Part shown: in pieces, positions 1 to 31,474 of the stretch
Numbering within the stretch: position 1 is the first letter of the stretch
Layout: each line of letters opens with the position of its first letter
Translations under genes and position numbers: made by a program
Assembly (NCBI GenBank): GCA_019686135.1
Contig: JADGHL010000046.1
Location: 1 to 33,940 of the forward strand
Length of the DNA stretch: 33,940 nucleotides
DNA from: Myxococcaceae bacterium
Lineage (GTDB): Bacteria > Myxococcota > Myxococcia > Myxococcales > Myxococcaceae
Reading direction: 5' to 3'
The notes under the pieces: generated by a model
The model's database searches: none
What the model was told of the DNA's origin: nothing
The model's input: only the letters and a program-made list of their open reading frames with translations

Positions 1-542
1 TGATATGTGAGCTCGGAGCCTGCGACGCGGTGCGCTCGGAGCTGCCGCTCTTCGACCCGATGAACTCTGAGCTGGAGGTCTGCGAGGCGAAGCGCTCAAG
101 AGCGCTGCTCTCCGAGGCGGCGTGCTGTGAGCTGGCGTTCTGTGAGGTGATGCGCTCGGAGCCCGCGCTCTGCGACGCGATGATATGTGAGCTCGCAGCC
201 TGCGACGCGGTGCGCTCGGAGCTGCCGCTCTGCGACCCGATGAACTCTGAGCTGGAGGTCTGCGAGGCGACGCGCTCAAGAGCGCTGCTCTCCGAGGTGG
301 CGTGCTGTGAGCTGGAGGTCTGGGAGGTGATGCGCTCATGAGCGGCGCTCTCCGAGGCAGCGTGCCGTGAGCCGGTGGCTTGTGAGGTGATGCGCTCGGA
401 GCCGGCGCTCTGCGACGCGATGAACTGTGAGCCGCTGGCCCGCGAGGCGGTGCGCTCGGAGCTGCCGCTCTGCGACCCGATGAACTCTGAGCTGGAGGTC
501 TGCGAGGTGATGCGCTCGGAACCGCCGCTCTGTGAGGTGCTC
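1..542 (-). repeat. 30-bp coding tandem repeats with 180-bp higher-order period
   Basis: About 18 units of 30 bp lie end to end. On the minus strand, in the topoisomerase frame, each unit encodes a decapeptide; the two alternating types resemble IGSQSGSSER and TASQAASSHI. Units are grouped into a 180-bp (60-residue) higher-order repeat: positions 1-120 differ from 181-300 at only 4 sites by eye, while 121-180 versus 301-360 and the copies in 361-540 have diverged further. Because the unit is a multiple of three, several frames stay open, which creates spurious ORFs on both strands. Confidence 0.9.
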
Positions 543-2590
543 TGCGGCGACCGTGCACTCTCCGAACCGGCACGCTGCGGACAGGGCGCGTGGTGTGCCG
601 GTGGCGCATGCTCGGTTGTGCGCGACGCTCCGGGCGGATCCCACGCGCGCGCTCGCCGGTCGTCGGTGCTGGGTCGTTCCGACTCCGATGGATCGAACAA
701 CGTGCGCTGCCGCGGATCGCCCCTCGGTACTTTGGGCGGCGGCGGGCTCATCCGGCCGATCACCTCGCGCACGTACGCTTCGATGCCGCGGAGGAACGGC
801 TCCAGCTCGGCCTCGCCGCGTTCGATGCGCTGCAGCCGGGCCTCCCACTGGCCGGTCATCACCGGGCTCTTCACGGTCGGATCCACCGCGGCGATCAGCT
901 CGATCCCTTTCTCGGTGGCCTCCAGCGTCTTCCCGCGCCGCACGATGTACTCGCGCGCGAGCAGGGTCTCGATCATCGCGGCGCGCGTGGCCGGCGTCCC
1001 CAGTCCGCACTCGCGCATGGCGTCGGAGAGCTCCTTCTCGTCCAGCGTCCTCCCGGCGGTCTCCATCGCGGTCAGGAGCGTCGCGTCGGTGAATCGCCGC
1101 GGCGGCTGGGTGCGCTTCTTCATGGTCTTCGTATCCAGCACCTTCACGGGCAGCCCGCGCTTCAGCCCCTCGGGCAACAGCTGTTGTGGCGGCTCGGGTT
1201 CGCCCGGGTCCTCCTCCTTCTTCTTCTCCGCCGCCGGGGCTCGCAGCGGCCCGACCTCCAGCGCCTTCCAGCCCTTCTCGCGGATCGCGCTGCCGCTGCT
1301 CGCGAAGAGGTCCTCCACCCCGCCTTCGGAACGCACCACCGTCACTACCCGCGTGGCGTCCCACACGAAGTCGCCCTGCCAGGCGGCGAGGAACCGCCGG
1401 CAGACGAGGTCGTAGATCCGCTGCTCGTCGAGACTGAGGCGCTTCCCCTCGGGAGACGCCGCGGTGGGGATGAGCGCGTGGTGGTCGGTCACCTTCACGT
1501 CGTCGACGAAGCGCCGCGACAGCGGCCGTTCCCCGGTGCCGGGAGACAGCAATGACTCGTAGGGGCCGCGCACGGTGCGGACGATTGCCGGCAGCGTGGC
1601 GGCGACCTCGGTGGACAGGTGCCGGCTGCTCGTGCGCGGATAGCTCAGCAGCTTGTGCTGTTCGTACAGCGCCTGCGCCAATTCCAGCGTCTTCTGCGCG
1701 GAGAAGCCGTAGAGCCGGTTGGCGTGCCGCTGCAGATCGGTGAGGTCGTAGAGCAGCGGCGGGGGCATCCGCTTCGTCTCGCAATCGTGCGACCGCACCT
1801 GTGCTTCGCCCGCCTTCACCCGCGAAACGATCGCGTTCGCCTCGACACCGTCGATGGGCAGCCGCTGCACCCGTTCGCCCTTCACGTCCCGGAACCATGT
1901 TCCGTCGTACGTCTGGCCCTCGCCGGGCGAGAACGTCGCGACGACCTCGAGGTAGTCCTCGGGGACGAAGCGGCGGATCGCCAGCTCGCGCTCGACGACC
2001 ATCGCCAGCGTCGGCGTCTGCACGCGTCCGACAGAGAGCGGCTGGTCCCGCTGCAGCCCGTACGCGCGGGAGAGGTTCATCCCCACGAGCCAATCCGCCC
2101 GGCTCCGCCCGACCGCCGCCGCCGCGAGCGAGTCGTACGCCTGCGCGTCCTTCAGCTTCTGGAAGCCGTCGCGGATCGCCTCCTCGGTCAACGAAGAGAT
2201 CCACAGCCGCTTCACCGGCTTGCGACAGCCAGCGGCCTCATAGAGGTGGCGGAAGATCAGCTCGCCCTCGCGGCCGGCGTCAGTGGCGCAGACGACTTCG
2301 TGTACGTCCGGATCGTTCAGCACGCGCCGGACCACCTCGAACTGGGCGCGCGTCTTCTCCAGGACCACCAGGGGCCACCGGTCCGGCAGCATGGGCAGCT
2401 GCGACCAGCGCCAGGTCTTCCACTCCGGCCGGATCTGATGAGGTTCCGCCAGCCCGACCAGATGGCCGATGGCCCAGGTCACGCGGTAGCCGTTTCCTTC
2501 ATAGAAGCCGTCCCGCCGGGCGCGCGCGCCGAGCACCGCCGCGATGTCCCGCGCCACCGACGGCTTCTCTGCCACCACCGCGATCCCCAC
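1..2590 (-). CDS. topB: Type IA DNA topoisomerase (topoisomerase III-like) with Ser/Gln-rich repeat tail, partial
   Basis: Relaxes or decatenates DNA by single-strand passage. The start is GTG at 2590, with a GGGCGGGAGG Shine-Dalgarno stretch just upstream; no ATG gives the full protein. The TOPRIM domain is at the N-terminus (AEKPSVARDI around residues 7-16, TDAGREGELI at 103-112 with acidic residues D104 and E108). The active-site tyrosine is Y317 in LLSYPRTSSRHL. The conserved core ends near residue 620 (about position 720). No stop codon follows. The same frame continues through a linker and then 18 decapeptides of the type ITSQTSSSEF / IGSQSGSSER to position 2, so the protein is at least 863 residues and its C-terminus lies outside the window. 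Usual TopB proteins are about 600-750 residues and often end in zinc-finger or basic tails; no Cys motif is visible here. The call to TopB rather than a generic type IA enzyme rests on the N-terminal TOPRIM layout and the active-site context. Confidence 0.88.
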   Translation of the reverse strand, partial: MGIAVVAEKPSVARDIAAVLGARARRDGFYEGNGYRVTWAIGHLVGLAEPHQIRPEWKTWRWSQLPMLPDRWPLVVLEKTRAQFEVVRRVLNDPDVHEVVCATDAGREGELIFRHLYEAAGCRKPVKRLWISSLTEEAIRDGFQKLKDAQAYDSLAAAAVGRSRADWLVGMNLSRAYGLQRDQPLSVGRVQTPTLAMVVERELAIRRFVPEDYLEVVATFSPGEGQTYDGTWFRDVKGERVQRLPIDGVEANAIVSRVKAGEAQVRSHDCETKRMPPPLLYDLTDLQRHANRLYGFSAQKTLELAQALYEQHKLLSYPRTSSRHLSTEVAATLPAIVRTVRGPYESLLSPGTGERPLSRRFVDDVKVTDHHALIPTAASPEGKRLSLDEQRIYDLVCRRFLAAWQGDFVWDATRVVTVVRSEGGVEDLFASSGSAIREKGWKALEVGPLRAPAAEKKKEEDPGEPEPPQQLLPEGLKRGLPVKVLDTKTMKKRTQPPRRFTDATLLTAMETAGRTLDEKELSDAMRECGLGTPATRAAMIETLLAREYIVRRGKTLEATEKGIELIAAVDPTVKSPVMTGQWEARLQRIERGEAELEPFLRGIEAYVREVIGRMSPPPPKVPRGDPRQRTLFDPSESERPSTDDRRARAWDPPGASRTTEHAPPAHHAPCPQRAGSESARSPQSTSQSGGSERITSQTSSSEFIGSQSGSSERTASRASGSQFIASQSAGSERITSQATGSRHAASESAAHERITSQTSSSQHATSESSALERVASQTSSSEFIGSQSGSSERTASQAASSHIIASQSAGSERITSQNASSQHAASESSALERFASQTSSSEFIGSKSGSSERTASQAPSSHI

Positions 2591-8712: not shown

Positions 8713-10386
8713 TCAGTGCGCCTGCTGCTTCAGACTGGCCTCCAGCTTCGCGCGCAGATCCGGCGGAAGTTGGTCGAACCCGCTCCCGGCGAAGGACGGA
8801 GGCGGCCGCTTCTTGAACAGCTCGACCCCGCGTTCGATTCGGGACTTCTCCGAGGTGCTGACCACGTAGATCGCCTCATCCACCGCGCCGCGCGCGTACA
8901 GGCCGCCCTCGGTGGTCTTGCCCAGCTTCACCGCCTGCTTCACGCCGCCCTCCAGCGTCACCTCGATCGTCGCGACCGGGCGGGTGAGGCCCGCCTGCGC
9001 GTCGTTGGTCACCGACGCTTCGGCCAGCTTCAGCGCGCGCAGCGCCCGGAACGAGGCCAGCTGCATGGACACGGTGGAGGGGTCGAACTCGAAGCCGTCC
9101 GGGAGCTTCTTCGGTTCGGTCAGCTTCCAGCTCGTGCCGTCCTTCTCCACCACCACGTGGGTGGCGCCGCTGTGCAGCTCCAGCTTCGTGACCTTGTCCG
9201 CGTCGAAGTTGAACAGCGACAGATCGCGCAGGTCGCTCAGCTTCTTCGTCACCGCGGCCACCGAGTAGCCCGGCACCAGGTACACCTGCGCGTCGCCGTC
9301 CATCCGCACCGGCACCAGTGAGGCGGTGCGGTTGGCGCCGTCGAGGTCGCCGCGGGTCACCGCGTCGTCCTTCGGCGTGGCGGCGTAGACGCCCACGTCC
9401 AGTCGCGCGAACGCCTTCGGATCGTTGGCCAGGCGCTCGGCGATCTTCCGCAGCGATTCCGGCTTCGCCGTGTCCGCCGCCACCTTCTTCAGATCCTCCA
9501 CGGTGACGCGGTCGTCCTTCTTCTCCGCGGCGTCGACCGTGTCGAATTGCGTGCGCAGCTCCCGCGCCGCCGTCTGCTCGTCGTTGTCCGGCCGGCGGCC
9601 GAAGTGCAGCGTGACCTTCTTGCCGCCGGACAGCTCCGCCTCGACCACGTCGTGCGCGCCGGCGAGCCCGAACCATTCGTCGTCGACGTGATCGGCGAAC
9701 GCCTGCGCGGTCAAGTAGGACAGCTGCGAGGGGATGGACGAGGCGGCGCGCGCGTCGAAGCGGAACCCGGCCGGGGGCGTCACCCCATCGCCCAGCTTCC
9801 ACTCCGTCCCGTCCTTCTTCAGCGAGTACGCCGCGTCGGCGACCGGCTTGACGGTGAGCGCGGTCACATCATCCGCCTTGAACGAGACGAACCGCTTGTT
9901 CCGCCACTCGTCGGCGTTGCGGTGGAGCTGCCACGAGAGCGTGCCGGGCACCACGAAGACGGCGTCGGAGTCGGGCAGCCGCGCGTACAGCCCGCCGTTG
10001 CGCGCGTTCTTGCCGAACCACACCTCCACCGGCGCGCCGCCTTCGCTCTCCACCTTCACCTTGAGCGCCTTGTCCGCGGTCAGCTCGTACTCGGCGTGCT
10101 TCTCCGCGCGCAGGGTCACCACTTCGGTGGTCTTCACCTTCGCCAGCGCCTCGAGCGCGTTGCGCACCTGCTGCGTGTCCGCCGGCTTGCCGGCCACCGT
10201 CCAGTCCGACCCGTTCTTCTTCAGCGTGAAGCCGCCCAGCTCGACCGCCGTCACCTTCGCGGGGTCGATCCGTCGGGTGAGGTCCAGCGTCCGGGTCCCC
10301 TCGCTCACCCTGGTCTCGCGGGTGGCGAAGTACACCGCGAGCAGCGCGACGAAGACTCCCGCGGCGATCAGGGGCATGCGTTTCAT
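8713..10386 (-). CDS. DUF4340 domain-containing protein
   Basis: A 557-residue protein with an N-terminal membrane anchor (MPLIAAGVFVALLAVYFATR, residues 4-23) and a large periplasmic part. The repeated beta-rich modules read like DUF4340: VTAVELGGFTLKKNGSDWTVAG near residues 50-70, then RFVSFKADDVTALTV, and later VTKLELHSGATHVVVEKDGTSWKLTEPKKLP. DUF4340 proteins are typically encoded next to GldG-like and ABC-2 transporter genes, as here. It is the last gene of the apparent four-gene operon, 44 bp after the GldG-like gene. The function of the family is not known; a periplasmic partner of the transporter is inferred from conserved gene order. Confidence 0.85.
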   Translation of the reverse strand: MKRMPLIAAGVFVALLAVYFATRETRVSEGTRTLDLTRRIDPAKVTAVELGGFTLKKNGSDWTVAGKPADTQQVRNALEALAKVKTTEVVTLRAEKHAEYELTADKALKVKVESEGGAPVEVWFGKNARNGGLYARLPDSDAVFVVPGTLSWQLHRNADEWRNKRFVSFKADDVTALTVKPVADAAYSLKKDGTEWKLGDGVTPPAGFRFDARAASSIPSQLSYLTAQAFADHVDDEWFGLAGAHDVVEAELSGGKKVTLHFGRRPDNDEQTAARELRTQFDTVDAAEKKDDRVTVEDLKKVAADTAKPESLRKIAERLANDPKAFARLDVGVYAATPKDDAVTRGDLDGANRTASLVPVRMDGDAQVYLVPGYSVAAVTKKLSDLRDLSLFNFDADKVTKLELHSGATHVVVEKDGTSWKLTEPKKLPDGFEFDPSTVSMQLASFRALRALKLAEASVTNDAQAGLTRPVATIEVTLEGGVKQAVKLGKTTEGGLYARGAVDEAIYVVSTSEKSRIERGVELFKKRPPPSFAGSGFDQLPPDLRAKLEASLKQQAH

Positions 10387-12837: not shown

Positions 12838-13809
12838 CTACGCCGCCTGAGCGAGCGGCGCGACGGTGAGCTTGCGGAACGTCTCTTCGAGGCTGACGTG
12901 CTGGCGGTGCACCTCGAGCAGCGCCAGGTCGTGCTTCACCGCGGCTTCGAACAGCGAACGGCGGATGTCCTCCGCGCCGTAGCGGAGCACGAAGCCGAGC
13001 GTCCCTTCGCCTTCGGCTTCGCCCGTCTCGACGCCGAGCACGCCGGGCACGGCCGAGAGCGCCTCGCGTACCGCCGCCGGATCGAGCGTGGCGCCGGTGC
13101 GGCTGGCCAGGACCACGTGCACGCGCCCGCCTTCGGACTGGGTGAGGTGGTCCGGCGCGTCGTCCGCCACCAGCTTGCCGGCGCTGATGATCAGCACGCG
13201 GTCGCAGGTGGTCTGGACCTCGGAGAGGATGTGCGTGGAGAGGATGACCGTCTTCTCACGGCCGAGCTCCTTGATCAGGCTGCGGATCTCGACGATCTGG
13301 TTCGGGTCCAGGCCGCTGGTGGGTTCGTCGAGGATGAGCAGATCCGGATCGTGGAGGATCGCCTGGGCGAGGCCGACGCGCTGACGGTAGCCCTTGGAGA
13401 GCTGGCCGATGTCCTTGCCCATCACCTCCAGAAGGCCGCAGCGCTCGGCGACGTGGCGGATGCGGGCGGCGCGGTTCGCGCGCGGGAGGTTGCGGATGTC
13501 CGCGATGAACTCCAGGTACTCGCGGACCATCATGTCTTCGTAGAGCGGGTTGTTCTCCGGCAGGTAGCCGACCTTGCGGCGCGCCGCCACCGGGTCAGCG
13601 GAGAGGTCGATTCCTCCGACGAAGGACTTGCCCGAGGTGGGGGTCACGTACCCCGAGAGGATGCGCATCGTCGTCGACTTGCCGGCGCCGTTCGGGCCGA
13701 GCAGGCCGACCACCTGCCCGCGAGGGACCTCGAAGCTCACCCCGCGAAGCGCTTCGGTCTCTCCGTACCGCTTGGTGAGACCCTCGATTCGAATCATCGG
13801 CTGCGTCAC
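12838..13809 (-). CDS. ABC transporter ATP-binding protein (GldA-like)
   Basis: A 323-residue ATPase that powers the adjacent permease. It has Walker A GPNGAGKST (residues 38-46), the Q-loop region VGYLPENNPLY, signature LSKGYRQRVGLAQA, Walker B LLILDEPTSGLD and the switch histidine in ILSTHIL. The C-terminal ~90 residues form an accessory domain as in GldA/CcmA-type proteins. The chosen start is GTG 13809 (GTGACGCAGCCG), preceded by CGGAG; an in-frame ATG at 13797 is an alternative. It is the first gene of the operon, with a promoter candidate 50-80 bp upstream. Confidence 0.9.
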   Translation of the reverse strand: MTQPMIRIEGLTKRYGETEALRGVSFEVPRGQVVGLLGPNGAGKSTTMRILSGYVTPTSGKSFVGGIDLSADPVAARRKVGYLPENNPLYEDMMVREYLEFIADIRNLPRANRAARIRHVAERCGLLEVMGKDIGQLSKGYRQRVGLAQAILHDPDLLILDEPTSGLDPNQIVEIRSLIKELGREKTVILSTHILSEVQTTCDRVLIISAGKLVADDAPDHLTQSEGGRVHVVLASRTGATLDPAAVREALSAVPGVLGVETGEAEGEGTLGFVLRYGAEDIRRSLFEAAVKHDLALLEVHRQHVSLEETFRKLTVAPLAQAA

Positions 13810-14317: not shown

Positions 14318-15967
14318 TCAGCGCCGCGGCTTCAGCCGTTCGCCGTCGCGTTCCAGTCGGAGCGGTGTGCGCTGGTCGTCCCGGATGGTGACGGTCGTGC
14401 GGTATGGCTGGATGGGGTTCTCGTCGCCAGGCAGCGCGCGCAGCTCCACGCGGTGGCGCCCGGCGGAGACCTGCAGCGACTTCTCCCACGGCGTCTGCCC
14501 GCGCACCTTGCCGTCGATGAGGATCTCCACGTACGCGCCCTTCACGTCGACCGCGAGCGTGCCGGAGCCCATGGGCGTATGCCTCGGAGAGGCGGCCACC
14601 TCCGCGGCGTTGTGCCCGGTGTCGGGCTCCTTGTTCTCCTCCGGCGGCGACTCGTCTTCCGGCTGCAACAGGACGGGCGTGGTGTCCGGGTCGACCGCGG
14701 GCGCCTCGGGGTCGGACCGCGCCTCGGGGGAAGCTCCGGGCGCGTTGGGCCGCGCGTCGATGGGCGTTCCCCGCGCGCCGCCGGAGGTGAACGCGGAACG
14801 GAACGCGAACGCACCGATCGCCACCACCACGCCCACCAGCGCGAGCGGGATCCACAGCGGTGAACGCTTCGGCAGTGGAATCTCCGGGACGTCGTCGTGG
14901 TCCGTCGCGGCGCGCGCACGCCTGGGCGCGGGGCGATCCTCGGCCGATTTTCCTCCGCGCGCGGACGGCGTCGTCAGTCGCGGGGCCATCTTCGTCGCCG
15001 GATCCGCGAGCTCCCGGGCGATCTGCTGCAGCTCGGTCCTCACCTCGCGCGCGGAGGCGGGCCGGTCCGCGGGATCCTTCTCCAGGAGCCGGTGCACCAG
15101 CTCCGCCAGCCGCGGCGGGACGTGCGGCGCGCGCTCGAGCAGGTCCGGCACCTCGTCCACCACGTGCGAGGTGGCCACCGCCATCCCCTCTCCGGTGAAG
15201 GGCGGCTTGCCGGCCAGCAGCTCATAAAGGATGCAGCCCAGCGCGTAGAGATCGCTGGGCGGCCCCACCGCGAGACCCTGCGCCTGCTCCGGGGACATGT
15301 ACTCGGGCGTGCCCACCACGCGCTCGACGCGCGTCTGTTCCTTCCCCGGGGGTACGCGCTTGGCGATCCCGAAGTCGAGCACCTTCACGTAGCGGCCACC
15401 GCCGGGCTCTACGACCTGGAAGATGTTGGAGGGCTTGAGGTCGCGGTGCACCAGGTGCGCCTCGTGCGCGGCCCCGAGCGCGTCCGCCACCTGTATGCAG
15501 ATCTGCACCGCCTCCAGCGGCGGCAGCGGTCCCTGCTCCAGCGCGTCCTCGAGCGACTTGCCCTCGAGGTACTCCATCACGAGGTAGTGGCCCACGCCCG
15601 GCAGGCTGCCGAAGTCGTAGATGTCGATGATCGCCCGATGGCGGACGGCGTTGGCGCTTCGGGCCTCCTCCAGCAGGGATTCGACCTGCTTTGGATCGCG
15701 CGCCAACGAGGGGCGCAGCACCTTGATCGCCACCCGACGGCCGATCTTCGAGTGCACGCCCTCGTAGACGATCCCCATCCCGCCCGCGCCGAGCCGCCGC
15801 ACCACCTTGTAGTCCCCGAGCGACTGCCCGACGACGATGTCGCGCGCCACCGTCCGCTCCCAGCCCGGTTCGGGTTCGAGCGTGCGGGGCCCGCCGACGA
15901 CGGTGGGCTCGACGGGCGCGGACACGCGTGGGACGCGCCGGGGTCTGGGCTTTCCCTTCGGGGGCAT
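14318..15967 (-). CDS. Transmembrane Ser/Thr protein kinase with C-terminal PEGA domain
   Basis: A 549-residue Hanks-type kinase. Kinase domain, about residues 53-310: glycine loop LGAGGMGIVYEG, VAIKVL with K82, catalytic loop HRDLKPSN (D176, N181), DFG (198-200) and activation segment GTPEYMSPEQ. A basic/acidic linker is followed by one membrane helix (about 370-389, LWIPLALVGVVVAIGAFAF). The external part has a Pro/Glu-rich stretch and a PEGA domain (GTLAVDVKGAYVEILIDGKVRG, from about residue 469). This layout is very common in Myxococcota. Substrates cannot be inferred. The start ATG 15967 has no strong Shine-Dalgarno sequence. The YbaK-type gene lies 72 bp upstream on the same strand. Confidence 0.93.
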   Translation of the reverse strand: MPPKGKPRPRRVPRVSAPVEPTVVGGPRTLEPEPGWERTVARDIVVGQSLGDYKVVRRLGAGGMGIVYEGVHSKIGRRVAIKVLRPSLARDPKQVESLLEEARSANAVRHRAIIDIYDFGSLPGVGHYLVMEYLEGKSLEDALEQGPLPPLEAVQICIQVADALGAAHEAHLVHRDLKPSNIFQVVEPGGGRYVKVLDFGIAKRVPPGKEQTRVERVVGTPEYMSPEQAQGLAVGPPSDLYALGCILYELLAGKPPFTGEGMAVATSHVVDEVPDLLERAPHVPPRLAELVHRLLEKDPADRPASAREVRTELQQIARELADPATKMAPRLTTPSARGGKSAEDRPAPRRARAATDHDDVPEIPLPKRSPLWIPLALVGVVVAIGAFAFRSAFTSGGARGTPIDARPNAPGASPEARSDPEAPAVDPDTTPVLLQPEDESPPEENKEPDTGHNAAEVAASPRHTPMGSGTLAVDVKGAYVEILIDGKVRGQTPWEKSLQVSAGRHRVELRALPGDENPIQPYRTTVTIRDDQRTPLRLERDGERLKPRR

Positions 15968-25671: not shown

Positions 25672-26250
25672 TCAGCGCACCGCGTGCGGCTCTCCGCCGG
25701 GGCGCTCGTCCCGCCGAAGTCGGATCGCCTCGCGCAGCCGGCGCTCGTCGAGGATGAGCGCGTCGTCGAGCGTGTAGACGCCGTGACGTCCCTCGCCGAG
25801 CGACGCGAGGTGCTCTGCGTACCAGGCGGACGCCTCCCGGGTCCGCCCGCGCGCCTCGTCGAGCAGCGCGAGCCGGTGGAAGCAGTCCGACATCAATCCT
25901 TCGGCGAGCGTCCGTCCCAGTCCGCACTCGCCGGCGGCGAGGCCGTCCACGCCCTGCTCCAGAAGGAGCAGGTACGTCACCCGCGCGGTGTCGTCCTGTC
26001 CGAGGAGCTCGAAGACGCCGGCGCGGTACCACAGGAGCATCGGACAGGTCGGCGCGAGCAGGAGGGCGCGATCGAGCACCTTGGCGGCGTGCTCCGGGGT
26101 GTGGGCCTCCACCCAGTTGAGCGCAAGCCGCGCCCAAAGGCGGTGATCGTCCGGAGCCTCGAGCGCGTGCGCCATCAGCGCCCAGCGGATGCGGCGGTTC
26201 GGCTCGCTCCCGGAGAACGGCTGGGCGGATTGGAATGCGCGCGGAGGCAT
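25672..26250 (-). CDS. Small TPR-like protein
   Basis: A 192-residue soluble protein with helical repeat character: DDHRLWARLALNWVEAHTPEHAAKVLDRALLLAPTCPMLLWYRAGVFELLGQDDTARVTYLLLLEQG reads as two to three TPR-like helix pairs, and a third region (CFHRLALLDEARGRTREASAWYAEHLASL) resembles another. ATG 26250 was preferred; a GTG at 26262 is possible. It is divergent from the large exported-protein operon across about 150 bp and upstream of the sensor kinase gene on the same strand. Probably a protein-protein interaction module; no partner is evident. Confidence 0.65.
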   Translation of the reverse strand: MPPRAFQSAQPFSGSEPNRRIRWALMAHALEAPDDHRLWARLALNWVEAHTPEHAAKVLDRALLLAPTCPMLLWYRAGVFELLGQDDTARVTYLLLLEQGVDGLAAGECGLGRTLAEGLMSDCFHRLALLDEARGRTREASAWYAEHLASLGEGRHGVYTLDDALILDERRLREAIRLRRDERPGGEPHAVR

Positions 26251-26399
26251 CGGGGTTGTCACGGCGCGCCAGCATCTACCAGCGCGTCGACGCGTGTCGC
26301 CCCGGAATTCCCGGCGTGCGCTGCGCCCGGCCGGGGTGCAGGCAGGCTCCGGTGACGATCCGCAGGCGCCGCTCGCGGGCCCGGGCGTATGCTCGCGCG

Positions 26400-29300
26400 G
26401 TGCGCTGCGCGGTCCTCTCAGCATCGGTGTTCCTGGTGTGCGCGCTCCCGGGCCCGGATGCGCGGGCGCACGACGGCCCGCCCGAGCCGCTGTCCCTCCA
26501 CGAGCGCGGGGACGACGGCGACGGCGGCCGGGTGATGGGAACGTCGTTCGGGCTGCTCCAGTCGGTGAACGGCGTGGCCTGGGACATCATCTGCGCGGAG
26601 GCGATCGGCTACACCGAACAGTACGACCCGGTGGTGCACTGGAGCGCAGGCGGGACGCTCTTCGTCGGATCTCCGAAGGGGCTGTTCATCTCCCGCGACG
26701 GCGGCTGCAACTGGAGCCCCCACAGCTTCTTCACCACGCGCGGTGCCTCGGACGTGCGCGGCGCGCCCGGTCAGCCGAACGTGGTGTTCGCCACCTCCAG
26801 CCGCATCGCCGCGCAGAACGGGCTGTTCCGCTCCGACGACGACGGCTTCAACTGGACCACGCTCGCCGCCCGCGCCGACACCCAGTACACGGCGATCCGC
26901 TTCGCCCCCTCCAACCCGATGCGTGCGTACGCGTCCGCGTGGTCGCTCGACGACAGCGCGCCGCTCGTATACCGCTCGGACGACGCCGGACAGTCCTTCG
27001 TCGAGAGCACGGCGATCGCTCCGTGGTTCTCCGGGTTCACGCTGGTGGCGGTGTCGCCCACGGATCCGGAGGTGCTGTTCGCCAGCGTCTACGACGGGAG
27101 CGAGTACGTGCTGCTCGCCAGCAACGACGCCGGCGCCACCTTCGCCGAGGTCGCCCGCGACGCGCGCGCCTTCCGCGCGATGGTCTTCGAACCGGACACC
27201 GGGATCGTCTGGGCCACCGCCAACCGACTGTTCCGGTCCAGCGACGGCGGGAAGACCTTCGTGAAGCACGTCGCGCCGAAACGGCCCGCCTGCATCACCC
27301 GCGCCCGCGGAGAGACGGAGCTGTGCGGGTCGTCCTTGGACGAGTTCGCCATCGCCGTGCTCGAGCTCGACGGCGGCATCACCCCGACCTTCCGCTTCGA
27401 CCAGAGCCGGGGCCTGCTCTCCTGCGCGCCGGGCTCGTCCGTCCACGACATCTGCACGCCGATTTGGGGCGCGATCGCCGCGCTGCTCGGGTTGCCGTCG
27501 GAGGACGGCGGCATGGTCACGCCGGACGGCGGGGCCGATGGCGGGCCGGCCGGAAGCGACGGCGGCGATGCGGGCGCGTCGATCGCAGCAGATGGTGGCC
27601 CGAACGAGGGCAAGTCACCCGGAGGGTGCGGGTGTGCGGAGAGTGGAGGACCGGAGCGGGTGGGGTGGATCGCCATCCTCGGGCTGCGGGCGGCGATGCG
27701 GAGATCGCGGCGGAAACGCGCGAAGCGAGCCGGCAGGAGCAACCTATCGGCGGGGACCGCCGGAGTCCCGCGCGCGCGCGGTGGGGCGACAGCCGCCGCG
27801 CTGGTCTCCATCCTGTGCGGGGTGGTTGCGCTCGTCGTCGCCTGCTCGCCGACGCCACCGCCGGGCCCGCCGGACGCTGGCGCGGCAGATCCGTGCACTC
27901 CGAACCCGTGCGGTGAGGCGCACCGCACCGTCTGCACCACCGATGCTTCCGGCGCGCCGTCGTGCGCGTGCGATCCCGGCTTCCACGACGTCGCGGGTGC
28001 CTGCATCGCGGACTCGCCGTGCGATCCGAACCCGTGCATCCAGCCGCACAAGACCGTCTGCTCGCTGGTGGGCAGCGTCGCCGCGTGCGGGTGCGATCCC
28101 GGCTTCGTCGAGGACGACCACGGTGATTGCGTTCCGTCGCCGGACGACTGCAGCGCGCAACACGTGACCGGTGACGCCTTCGAGCCCGACGAATGTCCGA
28201 CGCTCGCTCGCGACATCGGCGGCAGCGGCACCCAGCGCGAGTCCCACACGCTCGACCCACAGGACGACGTCGACTGGTTCCGCGTGGACGTCGGAAAGGG
28301 GCGGATCATCCGCGTTCAGGCCGAGTCCTCGTCCTCGATGCCGCTGCGCGCGGATGCGTGGATGGGCTCGCCGCTCGCGCCCGTGGGACGCGCGCACGGC
28401 GGAAGCGTGGGCGTGGACGCGGCGTGGCGGGCGCCTGCCGCCGGGACGTTCTACTTCCGCGTCGCTGCCGGAGAACCGACGAGCGTACCGATCCCGTACA
28501 CGATCAGCCTTGGCGATCTCGGCCTGGACGACACCGGCGACTCGGTGTCCGAGGCGCGAGCGGGATCGCTGGGCGAGCCGGAGCTCGGGACGCTGCAGTT
28601 CAACGGGGACGTCGACGTGCTCTCGTTCATGCTCGAGGCCGGGCACACCTGGCGCTTCGAGTGGTCGACCTCCGCGCCAACGCCGCTTCTGGCGGACTGG
28701 CTGGATGGCGCGGGCACGGTGATCCGCTCGGGAGCCACCACCGGCGGCACGGGCGAGCTCGTCACGCGAACCGAGAGCACCGGGGATGTCTTCATCGCGT
28801 TGCACGCGGATCCGGAGGTCGCCGAGATGCCGTGGTCCGTGACCGTCACGGATCTGGGGCCGGACGATCACGGCGACGCACCGGCCGAAGCGACGGCGAT
28901 CGCTCCGGGTGCGCCGCAGCAGGCGGGGACGCTGGAGCGTGACGGGGATGTGGACGTCTTCTCCTTCACCGCGATCGCCGGACACATCTACGACTTCATC
29001 TGCACGCCGGTCTCGGTCTCCGACTGCCTCGTCACGCTCGTCGATCCGTCGGGCACCCTGGTGGCCGAGGACCTCGATGGCCTCGAGGGCCGCGTGACCA
29101 CCGAAGTCGGCGTCGCGGGCACCTGGACGGTGCAGGTCACGGCGCCGCCCGGCCAGACCGGCGGCTACACGTACGCGCTCTTCGATCTCGGCGTGGACGA
29201 CTTTGGGGACGATTCCATGACCGCCGCCGCGCTGGGGATGCCGCCCGTGGGCGGCACCGTCTCCGGCGTGGGAAACATCGAGACCGCGGGCGATCGCGAC

Positions 29301-30185
29301 TACCTCCAGTTCGAGGCCGACATCGACCACATCTACGACATCACCTGCACCCGCAACACGCTGGGCGCCTGCAACATGCGCGTGTTCGACGTGAACGGAT
29401 TGCCCGTGGCCCAGGACACCAACGGCGGGGATGCACGGACGCTTCACCTCTACAAAGGAGGCGGCACGTACTACGTGGAGATCTCCGGCGCCGGGACCGC
29501 GACCGGCACCTACAGCTGGAAGATCGAAGACCACCAGCACGACGACCACGGGGACGACCTGTTCGCCGCCACCCCGATGCTCGCCAACGGCGCGTGGGTC
29601 AATGGTGAGATCCAGACCTTCACGGACCAGGATTGGCTGAGCTTCGCCGCGGTGGCGGATCACGCGTACCGGATCGTCTGCCAGCGCGTGTCGCTGGGGG
29701 ACTGCCTGCTCACCGTGGAGGACGCCGCCGAAAACGTGCTTGCACAGGACACCAACGGACAGGACGCTGAGGTGGTCGTGAAGATGCTCTCGTCCGCCGA
29801 CGACTACCTCCAGATCTCAGCGCCGATGGGACAGCTGGGCACGTACTGGGTCAAGATCGAGGATCTCGGTCAGGACGATTGCCCGGAGACCCAAGCGGGC
29901 GCGCCGGCGATGTTCGTCAACGGCATCGCCGCGAACGGCGTGTTCGAGTACCCCGGTGACATCGACGTCCGAGAGGCGTCGCTGGTCGCGAACACCGTGT
30001 ACCACCTGACCGCGACGGGTGTTCCGCTGCGCTTTACGGTCTACGCGAGCGACGGGGTGACGGTCATCGCCTCCGGTGCGCCGCCCGCGAGCTTCAGCGA
30101 TCCGGTGGCCGGGCCGCACTACCTCGAGGTCCGCGCGCTCTCGCCCATGGCGACGGGCGCCTATTCGATCGCGGTGTCGCCATGA
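26400..30185 (+). CDS. BNR propeller with internal MYXO-CTERM-like signal fused to EGF/PPC-repeat lipoprotein
   Basis: A 1261-residue open frame combining what look like two proteins. Part 1, residues 1 to about 443: signal peptide (GTG 26400, ending PGPDARA), an Asp-box beta-propeller (SRDGGCNW, SDDDGFNW, SDDAGQSF, SNDAGATF, SSDGGKTF), an Asp/Gly-rich linker and a MYXO-CTERM-like tail (GGCGC at Cys410/412, VGWIAILGLRAAM, RRSRRKR). The paralogue just downstream stops at this point; here no stop occurs. Part 2: a lipoprotein-like signal (ALVSILCGVVALVVAC, Cys482), two EGF-like modules (CTPNPCGEAHRTVC..., CDPNPCIQPHKTVC...) and about six ~105-residue PPC-like repeats (DDHGDAPAEAT, GDVDVFSFTAIAGHIYDF). 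Part 2 could start separately at ATG 27696, giving 829 residues, although its Shine-Dalgarno sequence is poor. The longer upstream frame (from 26235) overlaps the divergent gene and is rejected. Confidence 0.7.
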   Translation: MRCAVLSASVFLVCALPGPDARAHDGPPEPLSLHERGDDGDGGRVMGTSFGLLQSVNGVAWDIICAEAIGYTEQYDPVVHWSAGGTLFVGSPKGLFISRDGGCNWSPHSFFTTRGASDVRGAPGQPNVVFATSSRIAAQNGLFRSDDDGFNWTTLAARADTQYTAIRFAPSNPMRAYASAWSLDDSAPLVYRSDDAGQSFVESTAIAPWFSGFTLVAVSPTDPEVLFASVYDGSEYVLLASNDAGATFAEVARDARAFRAMVFEPDTGIVWATANRLFRSSDGGKTFVKHVAPKRPACITRARGETELCGSSLDEFAIAVLELDGGITPTFRFDQSRGLLSCAPGSSVHDICTPIWGAIAALLGLPSEDGGMVTPDGGADGGPAGSDGGDAGASIAADGGPNEGKSPGGCGCAESGGPERVGWIAILGLRAAMRRSRRKRAKRAGRSNLSAGTAGVPRARGGATAAALVSILCGVVALVVACSPTPPPGPPDAGAADPCTPNPCGEAHRTVCTTDASGAPSCACDPGFHDVAGACIADSPCDPNPCIQPHKTVCSLVGSVAACGCDPGFVEDDHGDCVPSPDDCSAQHVTGDAFEPDECPTLARDIGGSGTQRESHTLDPQDDVDWFRVDVGKGRIIRVQAESSSSMPLRADAWMGSPLAPVGRAHGGSVGVDAAWRAPAAGTFYFRVAAGEPTSVPIPYTISLGDLGLDDTGDSVSEARAGSLGEPELGTLQFNGDVDVLSFMLEAGHTWRFEWSTSAPTPLLADWLDGAGTVIRSGATTGGTGELVTRTESTGDVFIALHADPEVAEMPWSVTVTDLGPDDHGDAPAEATAIAPGAPQQAGTLERDGDVDVFSFTAIAGHIYDFICTPVSVSDCLVTLVDPSGTLVAEDLDGLEGRVTTEVGVAGTWTVQVTAPPGQTGGYTYALFDLGVDDFGDDSMTAAALGMPPVGGTVSGVGNIETAGDRDYLQFEADIDHIYDITCTRNTLGACNMRVFDVNGLPVAQDTNGGDARTLHLYKGGGTYYVEISGAGTATGTYSWKIEDHQHDDHGDDLFAATPMLANGAWVNGEIQTFTDQDWLSFAAVADHAYRIVCQRVSLGDCLLTVEDAAENVLAQDTNGQDAEVVVKMLSSADDYLQISAPMGQLGTYWVKIEDLGQDDCPETQAGAPAMFVNGIAANGVFEYPGDIDVREASLVANTVYHLTATGVPLRFTVYASDGVTVIASGAPPASFSDPVAGPHYLEVRALSPMATGAYSIAVSP
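27621..27725 (+). other. Internal MYXO-CTERM-like sorting signal at gene fusion point
   Basis: Encodes GGCGCAES, a short hydrophobic stretch VGWIAILGLRAAM and the basic cluster RRSRRKRAKR. These are the three parts of the MYXO-CTERM signal normally found at the extreme C-terminus. All three frames are open through here. A single C-to-T change at the CGA codon at 27727-27729 would restore a stop. ATG 27696 inside it is the only usual start codon for the lipoprotein half. Confidence 0.5.
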
Positions 30186-31474
30186 GCAGGGCAGGTTGGC
30201 TCCGCGCCGTCGTGCTCGTGACCTGCGCGCTGTTCGGCGTCCCGGCGGCGCACGCGCACGGCGCCTTGCCGAATGCGCACACCATCACCGCGCGGATCGG
30301 CGCGCCCGGGGAGCTGTGGATCGAAACCAACTTCGGGCTGGTGGTGTCGCACGACGACGGGGCCACCTGGGACTGGATCTGCGAGGAGGCCCCCGGGTTC
30401 ACCGGCCACGTCGACGTGCTGGTGACACAGGACGGGCGCGTGCTCGCCGCCGGGTTCGACGGGCTCATTGTCTCCGACGACGGTGGCTGCAGCTGGTCGA
30501 AGGATCCGCTCTTCGCGGATCTCAGCCCCACGGAGATCGAAGCCTCGCCGGCGGATCCCGCGCGCCTGTTCGTCACCACCGCCCGCTACCAGAACACCAA
30601 CGGGCTCTTCCGTTCCGACGACGGCGGCTACACTTGGACGTTCACCCACCTGCGGAACGCAGGGCTGCTCTTCTCGTCGATCCGCATCGCACCTTCGAAC
30701 GCGAGCCGCGTGTACGTCTCCGCGTGGTGGGCGGTGGGCACGCCGGAGGTGGTGCTCTTCCGCAGCGACGATGGCGGGGACTCGTTCACCGAGATTCGCC
30801 TCACCTCGGCGCTCCCTGCCGGCGCCTTCACCGTGTGGGCGGTCGATCCGTCGGACCCCGACGTGGTGTACGCCTCGCTGGTGGAGAGCTCCGGCGAAGG
30901 GAACACCCGGCTGCTCCGCAGCGGGGACGCCGGCGCCACCTTCCAGACCGTGTTCACCGGGCCCGCGCCGCTCAACGGCCTCTCCGTCTCCGAGGACGGG
31001 AGCACCGTGTTCCTCGGCACCGACACCGGATTCTATCGATCGATCGACGGCGGACGGACGTTCTCCCAGCTGCCCGCGCCGACGGCCAATGCCTCGCCGC
31101 TCCTCGACGAAGGGACGCTGTACGCGTGCGCGTCGCAGCTCAAGGACGGCTTCGCGCTCGCGCGCAGCGCCGACCGCGGCGACACGCTGACGACCGTGCT
31201 GCGCCTGTCGGACATCCGCGGACCGCTCGACTGCCCGGCCGGATCGTCCACCGCCGACGTCTGCCCGAAGTTCTGGCCGGTGGTGAAAGACTCGTTCCCC
31301 AAAGGACCTGTTGCCGACGGTGGCACTCCGGCAGATGGCGGCGAACCGCCTCCGCCGCCCCCTCCCCAGGGCTGCGGCTGTTCCGACGTGGCCGGCGCGC
31401 CGCTGTGGCTCATGTCTCTCCTCGTTCTCGGCGTGGCCGGGCGCCGCGATTCCCGAAGAAGGTTCCTCCGATGA
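30182..31474 (+). CDS. BNR/Asp-box propeller protein with MYXO-CTERM tail
   Basis: A 430-residue exported protein. Signal peptide MSRAGWLRAVVLVTCALFGVPAAHA; the mature part begins HGALPNAHT. Asp-box motifs (SHDDGATW, SDDGGCSW, SDDGGYTW, SDDGGDSF, SGDAGATF, SIDGGRTF) mark the blades of a beta-propeller of the sialidase/Vps10-like kind, without visible catalytic sialidase residues. Near the end a two-Cys segment (LDCPAGSSTADVC) is shared with the preceding paralogue (LLSCAPGSSVHDIC). A Pro-rich linker leads to the MYXO-CTERM signal: QGCGCSDV, LWLMSLLVLGVAG, RRDSRRR. That signal predicts cleavage and attachment at the cell surface. The start overlaps the previous stop (ATGA). It is a tandem paralogue of the first half of the preceding gene. 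Confidence 0.85.
   Translation: MSRAGWLRAVVLVTCALFGVPAAHAHGALPNAHTITARIGAPGELWIETNFGLVVSHDDGATWDWICEEAPGFTGHVDVLVTQDGRVLAAGFDGLIVSDDGGCSWSKDPLFADLSPTEIEASPADPARLFVTTARYQNTNGLFRSDDGGYTWTFTHLRNAGLLFSSIRIAPSNASRVYVSAWWAVGTPEVVLFRSDDGGDSFTEIRLTSALPAGAFTVWAVDPSDPDVVYASLVESSGEGNTRLLRSGDAGATFQTVFTGPAPLNGLSVSEDGSTVFLGTDTGFYRSIDGGRTFSQLPAPTANASPLLDEGTLYACASQLKDGFALARSADRGDTLTTVLRLSDIRGPLDCPAGSSTADVCPKFWPVVKDSFPKGPVADGGTPADGGEPPPPPPPQGCGCSDVAGAPLWLMSLLVLGVAGRRDSRRRFLR

Follow-up and report, generated by a model that had tools for sequence, protein, structure and literature searches.

The locus and its topoisomerase half

The window analyzed here, a stretch of 33,940 nucleotides of Myxococcaceae DNA, is the entire contig C170 of its genome assembly (G000; 245 contigs, 5.5 Mb). 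A minus-strand frame begins at a GTG at position 2590 and stays open down to position 2, confirming the lack of a stop that the initial annotation had described; it spans 863 codons. The frame encodes a topoisomerase III (TopB) core (746..2590, minus strand; fusion residues 1–615), a non-repeat first part of a linker, reaching from where TopB similarity stops to where the decapeptides begin (542..745, minus strand; residues 616–683), and a run of decapeptide repeats with no predicted fold (541..2, minus strand; residues 684–863). The decapeptides, previously counted as at least 18 following the core, are exactly 18 in register, and TRF reports arrays of 30, 60 and 180 bp over positions 1–532 with scores of 197, 474 and 675, well beyond chance. 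No stop appears in the window because contig C170 ends inside the repeat array, and openness of the frame is by itself little proof of coding because a second frame across the array is also stop-free. Elsewhere the window encodes a DUF4340 protein (8713–10386), an ABC transporter ATPase (12838–13809) and a Ser/Thr protein kinase (14318–15967), all on the minus strand, as well as two adjacent plus-strand ORFs (26235–30185 and 30182–31474) that both match Sortilin-Vps10/BNR-type propeller models.

We assigned the TopB core using NCBIfam models NF005829 and TIGR01056, the Pfam domains Topoisom_bac and Toprim, and an alignment with Topo III from the PDB. Both NCBIfam models score above their curated cut-offs (NF005829 670.3 bits, cut-off 597; TIGR01056 557.2 bits, cut-off 515.75), and similarity to TopB stops at residue ~615, near window position 746. 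In the PDB alignment, Tyr317 (window 1640–1642) aligns with the catalytic Tyr328 of E. coli Topo III, and the tyrosine of the TopB SYPRT block is invariant. Among the acidic residues of the TOPRIM domain (Glu and DxDxE), Glu8, Asp104 and Glu108 are kept and the second Asp is Gly106; Gly in place of the second Asp of the DxDxE motif (residues 104–108, within TDAGREGE) is present in all ten aligned fused and unfused TopBs, unlike E. coli Topo III. This subfamily-wide Asp-to-Gly replacement weighs against taking topoisomerase activity of the TopB half for granted. This TopB is the only one in the window's genome; the other type IA match, on contig C215, is TopA-like and ~32% identical. We rejected the C215 match from the DNA search as a related array or TopB, as it belongs to this different type IA topoisomerase. 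A plasmid search for close TopBs returned only unrelated TopBs at 38–40% identity.

Continuation of the array on a second contig

A DNA search of the genome located the array elsewhere only at the end of contig C169. The terminal 42 bases of the window (1..42, minus strand) are identical to the start of C169 (locus L007, 9462..9421, minus strand); neither contig holds a second copy of this 42-mer, and the two share no other end-to-end overlap. On C169 the frame (L007 6617–9460, minus strand) runs through 18 more decapeptides, an 88-residue non-repeat stretch and a RecQ helicase, and then reaches a stop. The merged ORF of C170 and C169 comprises 1797 codons, with TopB at residues 1–615, a linker of 36 decapeptides and flanking sequence at residues 616–1131, and RecQ at residues 1132–1797. 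No read spans the junction, and because the assembly breaks within the array, the unit count is uncertain and probably a minimum. Extension leftward from the window, which had been proposed as a way to find the end of the topoisomerase, does lead to a stop codon, but one that lies past a RecQ helicase on C169. The frameshift between 560 and 720 that might have ended the topoisomerase earlier is not seen: the frame is unbroken and resumes into RecQ on the other contig. The opposite end of C169 (L007 1–468) likewise stops in a tandem repeat, with a 135-bp unit, 3.5 copies and 90% matches.

The RecQ half on C169 is composed of DEAD, Helicase_C, four-cysteine zinc and HRDC domains followed by the stop. 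It scores above the cut-off of the RecQ family model TIGR00614 (384.5 versus 219.8) and below that of the RecQ equivalog TIGR01389 (481.6 versus 640.2). Models PF16124 (zinc domain) and PF00570 (HRDC) both exceed their cut-offs, the zinc cysteines align to a solved RecQ structure, and the RecQ motifs are kept in the alignment. Judged from these models and alignments, the RecQ half is a diverged RecQ, distinct from orthologues of the E. coli type. The segment that connects Helicase_C to the zinc domain has ~65–70 extra residues (L007 6617–9460 minus, residues ~603–695) that appear winged-helix-like by eye and include an ALEKLWIHGG stretch well conserved across the fused clade. A second, stand-alone RecQ is encoded on contig C60 of the same genome.

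Distribution and inheritance of the fusion

Besides the merged window sequence, RecQ lies directly behind TopB in 44 loci of Myxococcota and Acidobacteriota. When relatives were searched with the TopB core, most members of this family yielded ORFs of 1273–1723 aa, with RecQ behind TopB on inspection. In a search across 195 genomes from the phylum, the best hit reached ~58% identity or more in 85 cases, 79 of them in ORFs 1216 aa or longer; five of the remaining six (the window, G002, G013, G016 and G087) stop at or beside a contig end, and the sixth (G154) is 1081 aa long. A scan of named genomes with a distant query returned 80 loci, the 12 closest of which (at least 54% identity) were all fused, versus none of the 68 weaker ones (39–50%). 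The 12 fused loci belong to Bryobacterales and other Acidobacteriota, Nannocystis poenicansa, and Corallococcus and other Myxococcota. Two contigs titled as Klebsiella pneumoniae and Bordetella parapertussis MAGs (L136 and L151) carry TopBs 46% and 42% identical to the query; the L136 TopB groups with a Myxococcota TopB, suggesting that its label may be wrong.

Phylogenetic analysis places the fused proteins together for each half. In a tree of 87 TopBs, the 45 fused members form one side of a branch with SH-aLRT support of 100, and in a RecQ tree 41 fused sequences separate from 18 stand-alone sequences as one fully supported clade; both are quick, non-bootstrapped trees with several long outgroup branches. 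Pairwise divergences among the TopB halves correlate with those among the RecQ halves (Spearman 0.82, a value reached in 0 of 999 permutations). Among relatives, full-length RecQs with at least 56% identity to the query are found in fused ORFs, and stand-alone RecQs have at most 48%. The TopB–RecQ fusion is inherited in myxobacteria and some Acidobacteria and is not an accident of assembly.

These data bear on two other readings of the contig ends. If the C170–C169 join were a chimera, the contigs would not be adjacent and would merely share a repeat; both do end in a repeat within a 245-contig assembly, and their overlap is just 42 bp. Synteny lends the join no support, as in five relatives the tested neighbor genes lie away from the fusion. 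The array is nevertheless present solely at these two contig ends, 44 fused relatives have the frame and domain order of the merged sequence, and its TopB half and its RecQ half each group within the fused clade, leaving a chimera extremely improbable. The reading closest to the initial annotation, in which TopB truly ends in or soon after the array with a real C-terminal tail and RecQ is a separate gene, is in keeping with a window that by itself shows just TopB and repeats, with the lack of a junction-spanning read, and with a TTG within the C169 frame that could start a separate RecQ. We consider it very remote given the shared array, the shared frame and the 42 exact bases that lead into RecQ, and given that the examined intact relatives in the TopB clade are all fused. 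The array is thus very probably the interdomain linker of one TopB–linker–RecQ polypeptide, split by the assembly at the repeat, in which we infer that RecQ, held to TopB by a flexible tether, hands it strands for unlinking. What had been taken for an unusual C-terminal tail of the topoisomerase is on this evidence a linker that resumes on C169, and the case carries a warning that a contig end within a repeat can mimic an exotic tail.

The merged linker comprises 516 residues rich in Ser, Ala and Gln and holds at least 36 decapeptides in exact register, with the consensus IASQSAGSER and hexads of 60 residues. All 36 units hold the 30-bp register without stops or indels. The disorder suggested earlier for this region is supported by its residue composition and by an AlphaFold2 model of the window's array part, which has a mean pLDDT of 41 and no secondary structure (a single-sequence prediction, and hence weak). 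The array has a pN/pS of ~1.0 at the 30-, 60- and 180-bp levels, a near-neutral value that argues against a sequence-specific role at most positions. We set aside the lack of stop codons as an argument for selection on the frame, since it is weak: ~1.8 stops are expected from 53 distinct variants and none is seen, and the higher figure obtained by counting all 251 differences was not used, as the repeats copy one another.

Linkers of the 45 fusions range from 23 to 516 aa (median 94), with that of the window the longest, and consist of 72–96% disorder-promoting residues and 4–28% hydrophobics. TRF arrays occur in 14 of the 45, and their units are unrelated, measuring 63 bp in L041, 51 bp in L091, 75 bp in L092, 99 bp in L097, 90 bp in L098 and 96 bp in the Nannocystis locus L112, compared to 30, 60 and 180 bp in the window. 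The linkers of relatives share no sequence. A PLPLGEGxGEG stretch is common to the linkers of L042, L044, L045, L051 and L106, as if a dispersed repeat had been inserted in frame repeatedly. The array is most likely a disordered spacer that is kept in frame so that RecQ is made, with its sequence little constrained.

A further possibility is that the fusion is real and the linker is active, with Ser/Gln-rich repeats that undergo phosphorylation, adopt a fold, promote condensation or contain replisome-docking motifs. The best-kept residues of the array are Ser at position 3 (34 of 36 units) and Ser at position 8 (30 of 36), which create a loose five-residue beat; the linker has 119 Ser and 32 SQ, and a Ser/Thr kinase gene lies within the window. 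The non-repeat part of the linker also contains QRTLF (residues 628–632; 695..709, minus strand), a candidate motif of the form QxxLF that resembles the beta-clamp-binding motif, and QxxLF is found again in the otherwise unalignable linkers of L044 (QPGLF) and L102 (QEPLF). Q..LF occurs in 3 of 45 linkers versus a shuffled mean of 0.1, a comparison to be read in light of the motif having been picked after it was seen, and we treat this putative motif as a lead only. An active linker appears unlikely against a pN/pS of ~1 across the array, no predicted fold, relatives' linkers that have no common sequence and are as short as 23 aa, and a post hoc motif present in just 3 of the 45.

Proposed coupling of the two enzymes and comparison with known systems

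RecQ helicases unwind DNA in the 3′ to 5′ direction, and Topo III opens a transient gate for the passage of single strands. Joined in one chain, the two probably act as a single unlinking machine, in which the RecQ half would unwind DNA or migrate junctions and hand single strands to the TopB gate, where strand passage would unlink merging forks, hemicatenanes or double Holliday junctions. Such coupling should promote the unlinking of these structures in the way known for the eukaryotic BLM–Topo IIIα–RMI1 complex (PMC4109787). The linker would act as a flexible tether that keeps both engines at high local concentration and allows them to reach different parts of a substrate. Slippage or unequal exchange may lengthen or shorten its repeat array, with maintenance of the reading frame as the main constraint. 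An AlphaFold2 model of the short-linker fusion L109 (pTM 0.29, from 11 sequences) is too poor to judge docking between TopB and RecQ.

Fusion might instead only co-express the two enzymes, with no mechanistic coupling between them. The very variable linker, the second stand-alone RecQ in the genome and the absence of docking evidence from the poor L109 model (pTM 0.29) would all fit this explanation, which we judge improbable because across two phyla every intact locus examined keeps the pair fused. At the other extreme, myxobacteria and Bryobacterales-type Acidobacteria might possess a covalent, single-chain machine for RecQ–Topo III unlinking, with a reach set by a disordered repeat linker that can expand and that also bears replisome-docking motifs; selection would then act on the length and repeat content of the linker as a control of engine cooperation, and we regard this extended proposal as doubtful. 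Inheritance of the fusion in two phyla constitutes gene-fusion evidence that RecQ and Topo III share a substrate in these bacteria. Such persistence is informative because the E. coli RecQ–Topo III partnership is disputed, and it does not by itself prove cooperation. Fusions with linkers of 23–516 residues also offer a natural single-chain system to relate tether length to cooperation, with the array described here as an extreme case of a hypervariable linker.

Among the open-access papers searched we found no description of a TopB–RecQ fusion, and an earlier notice is possible. E. coli has the same two enzyme families, and in vitro its Topo III can be modulated by RecQ (Harmon et al. 1999 and Suski and Marians 2008, as cited in PMC8185306 and PMC13244152). 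In that species a physical RecQ–Topo III interaction has not been observed, cooperation in vivo is disputed and seems to be lacking, and genetic data favor RecG as the Topo III partner (PMC13244152). The E. coli enzymes are separate chains, whereas the fusion is one chain. In the eukaryotic BLM/Sgs1–Topo IIIα–RMI1 complex, a RecQ-family helicase and a type IA topoisomerase act together (PMC4109787), a pairing like that of the fusion; the eukaryotic complex is held by protein contacts and RMI1, and the fusion by a covalent linker. Physical joining of a RecQ helicase to Topo III, as expected of a RecQ–Topo III–RMI1 dissolvasome, is seen here in the single ORF of the merged sequence and likewise in those of 44 relatives.

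Reverse gyrase resembles the fusion in combining an SF2 helicase-like module and a type IA topoisomerase in one chain, but its helicase is N-terminal and that of the fusion is C-terminal. We rejected an identity as reverse gyrase on this reversed domain order and on an rgy model score of 107.8 versus a cut-off of 471.7. The TopB subfamily PRK07726/NF005829 (for example in Clostridia and Bacilli) has the same topoisomerase core, including TDAGREGE in TOPRIM, and its unfused homologues lack the linker and RecQ. The TopB–RecQ fusion joins a known functional pair covalently through an extreme repeat linker, an architecture that any listing of domain orders would reveal.
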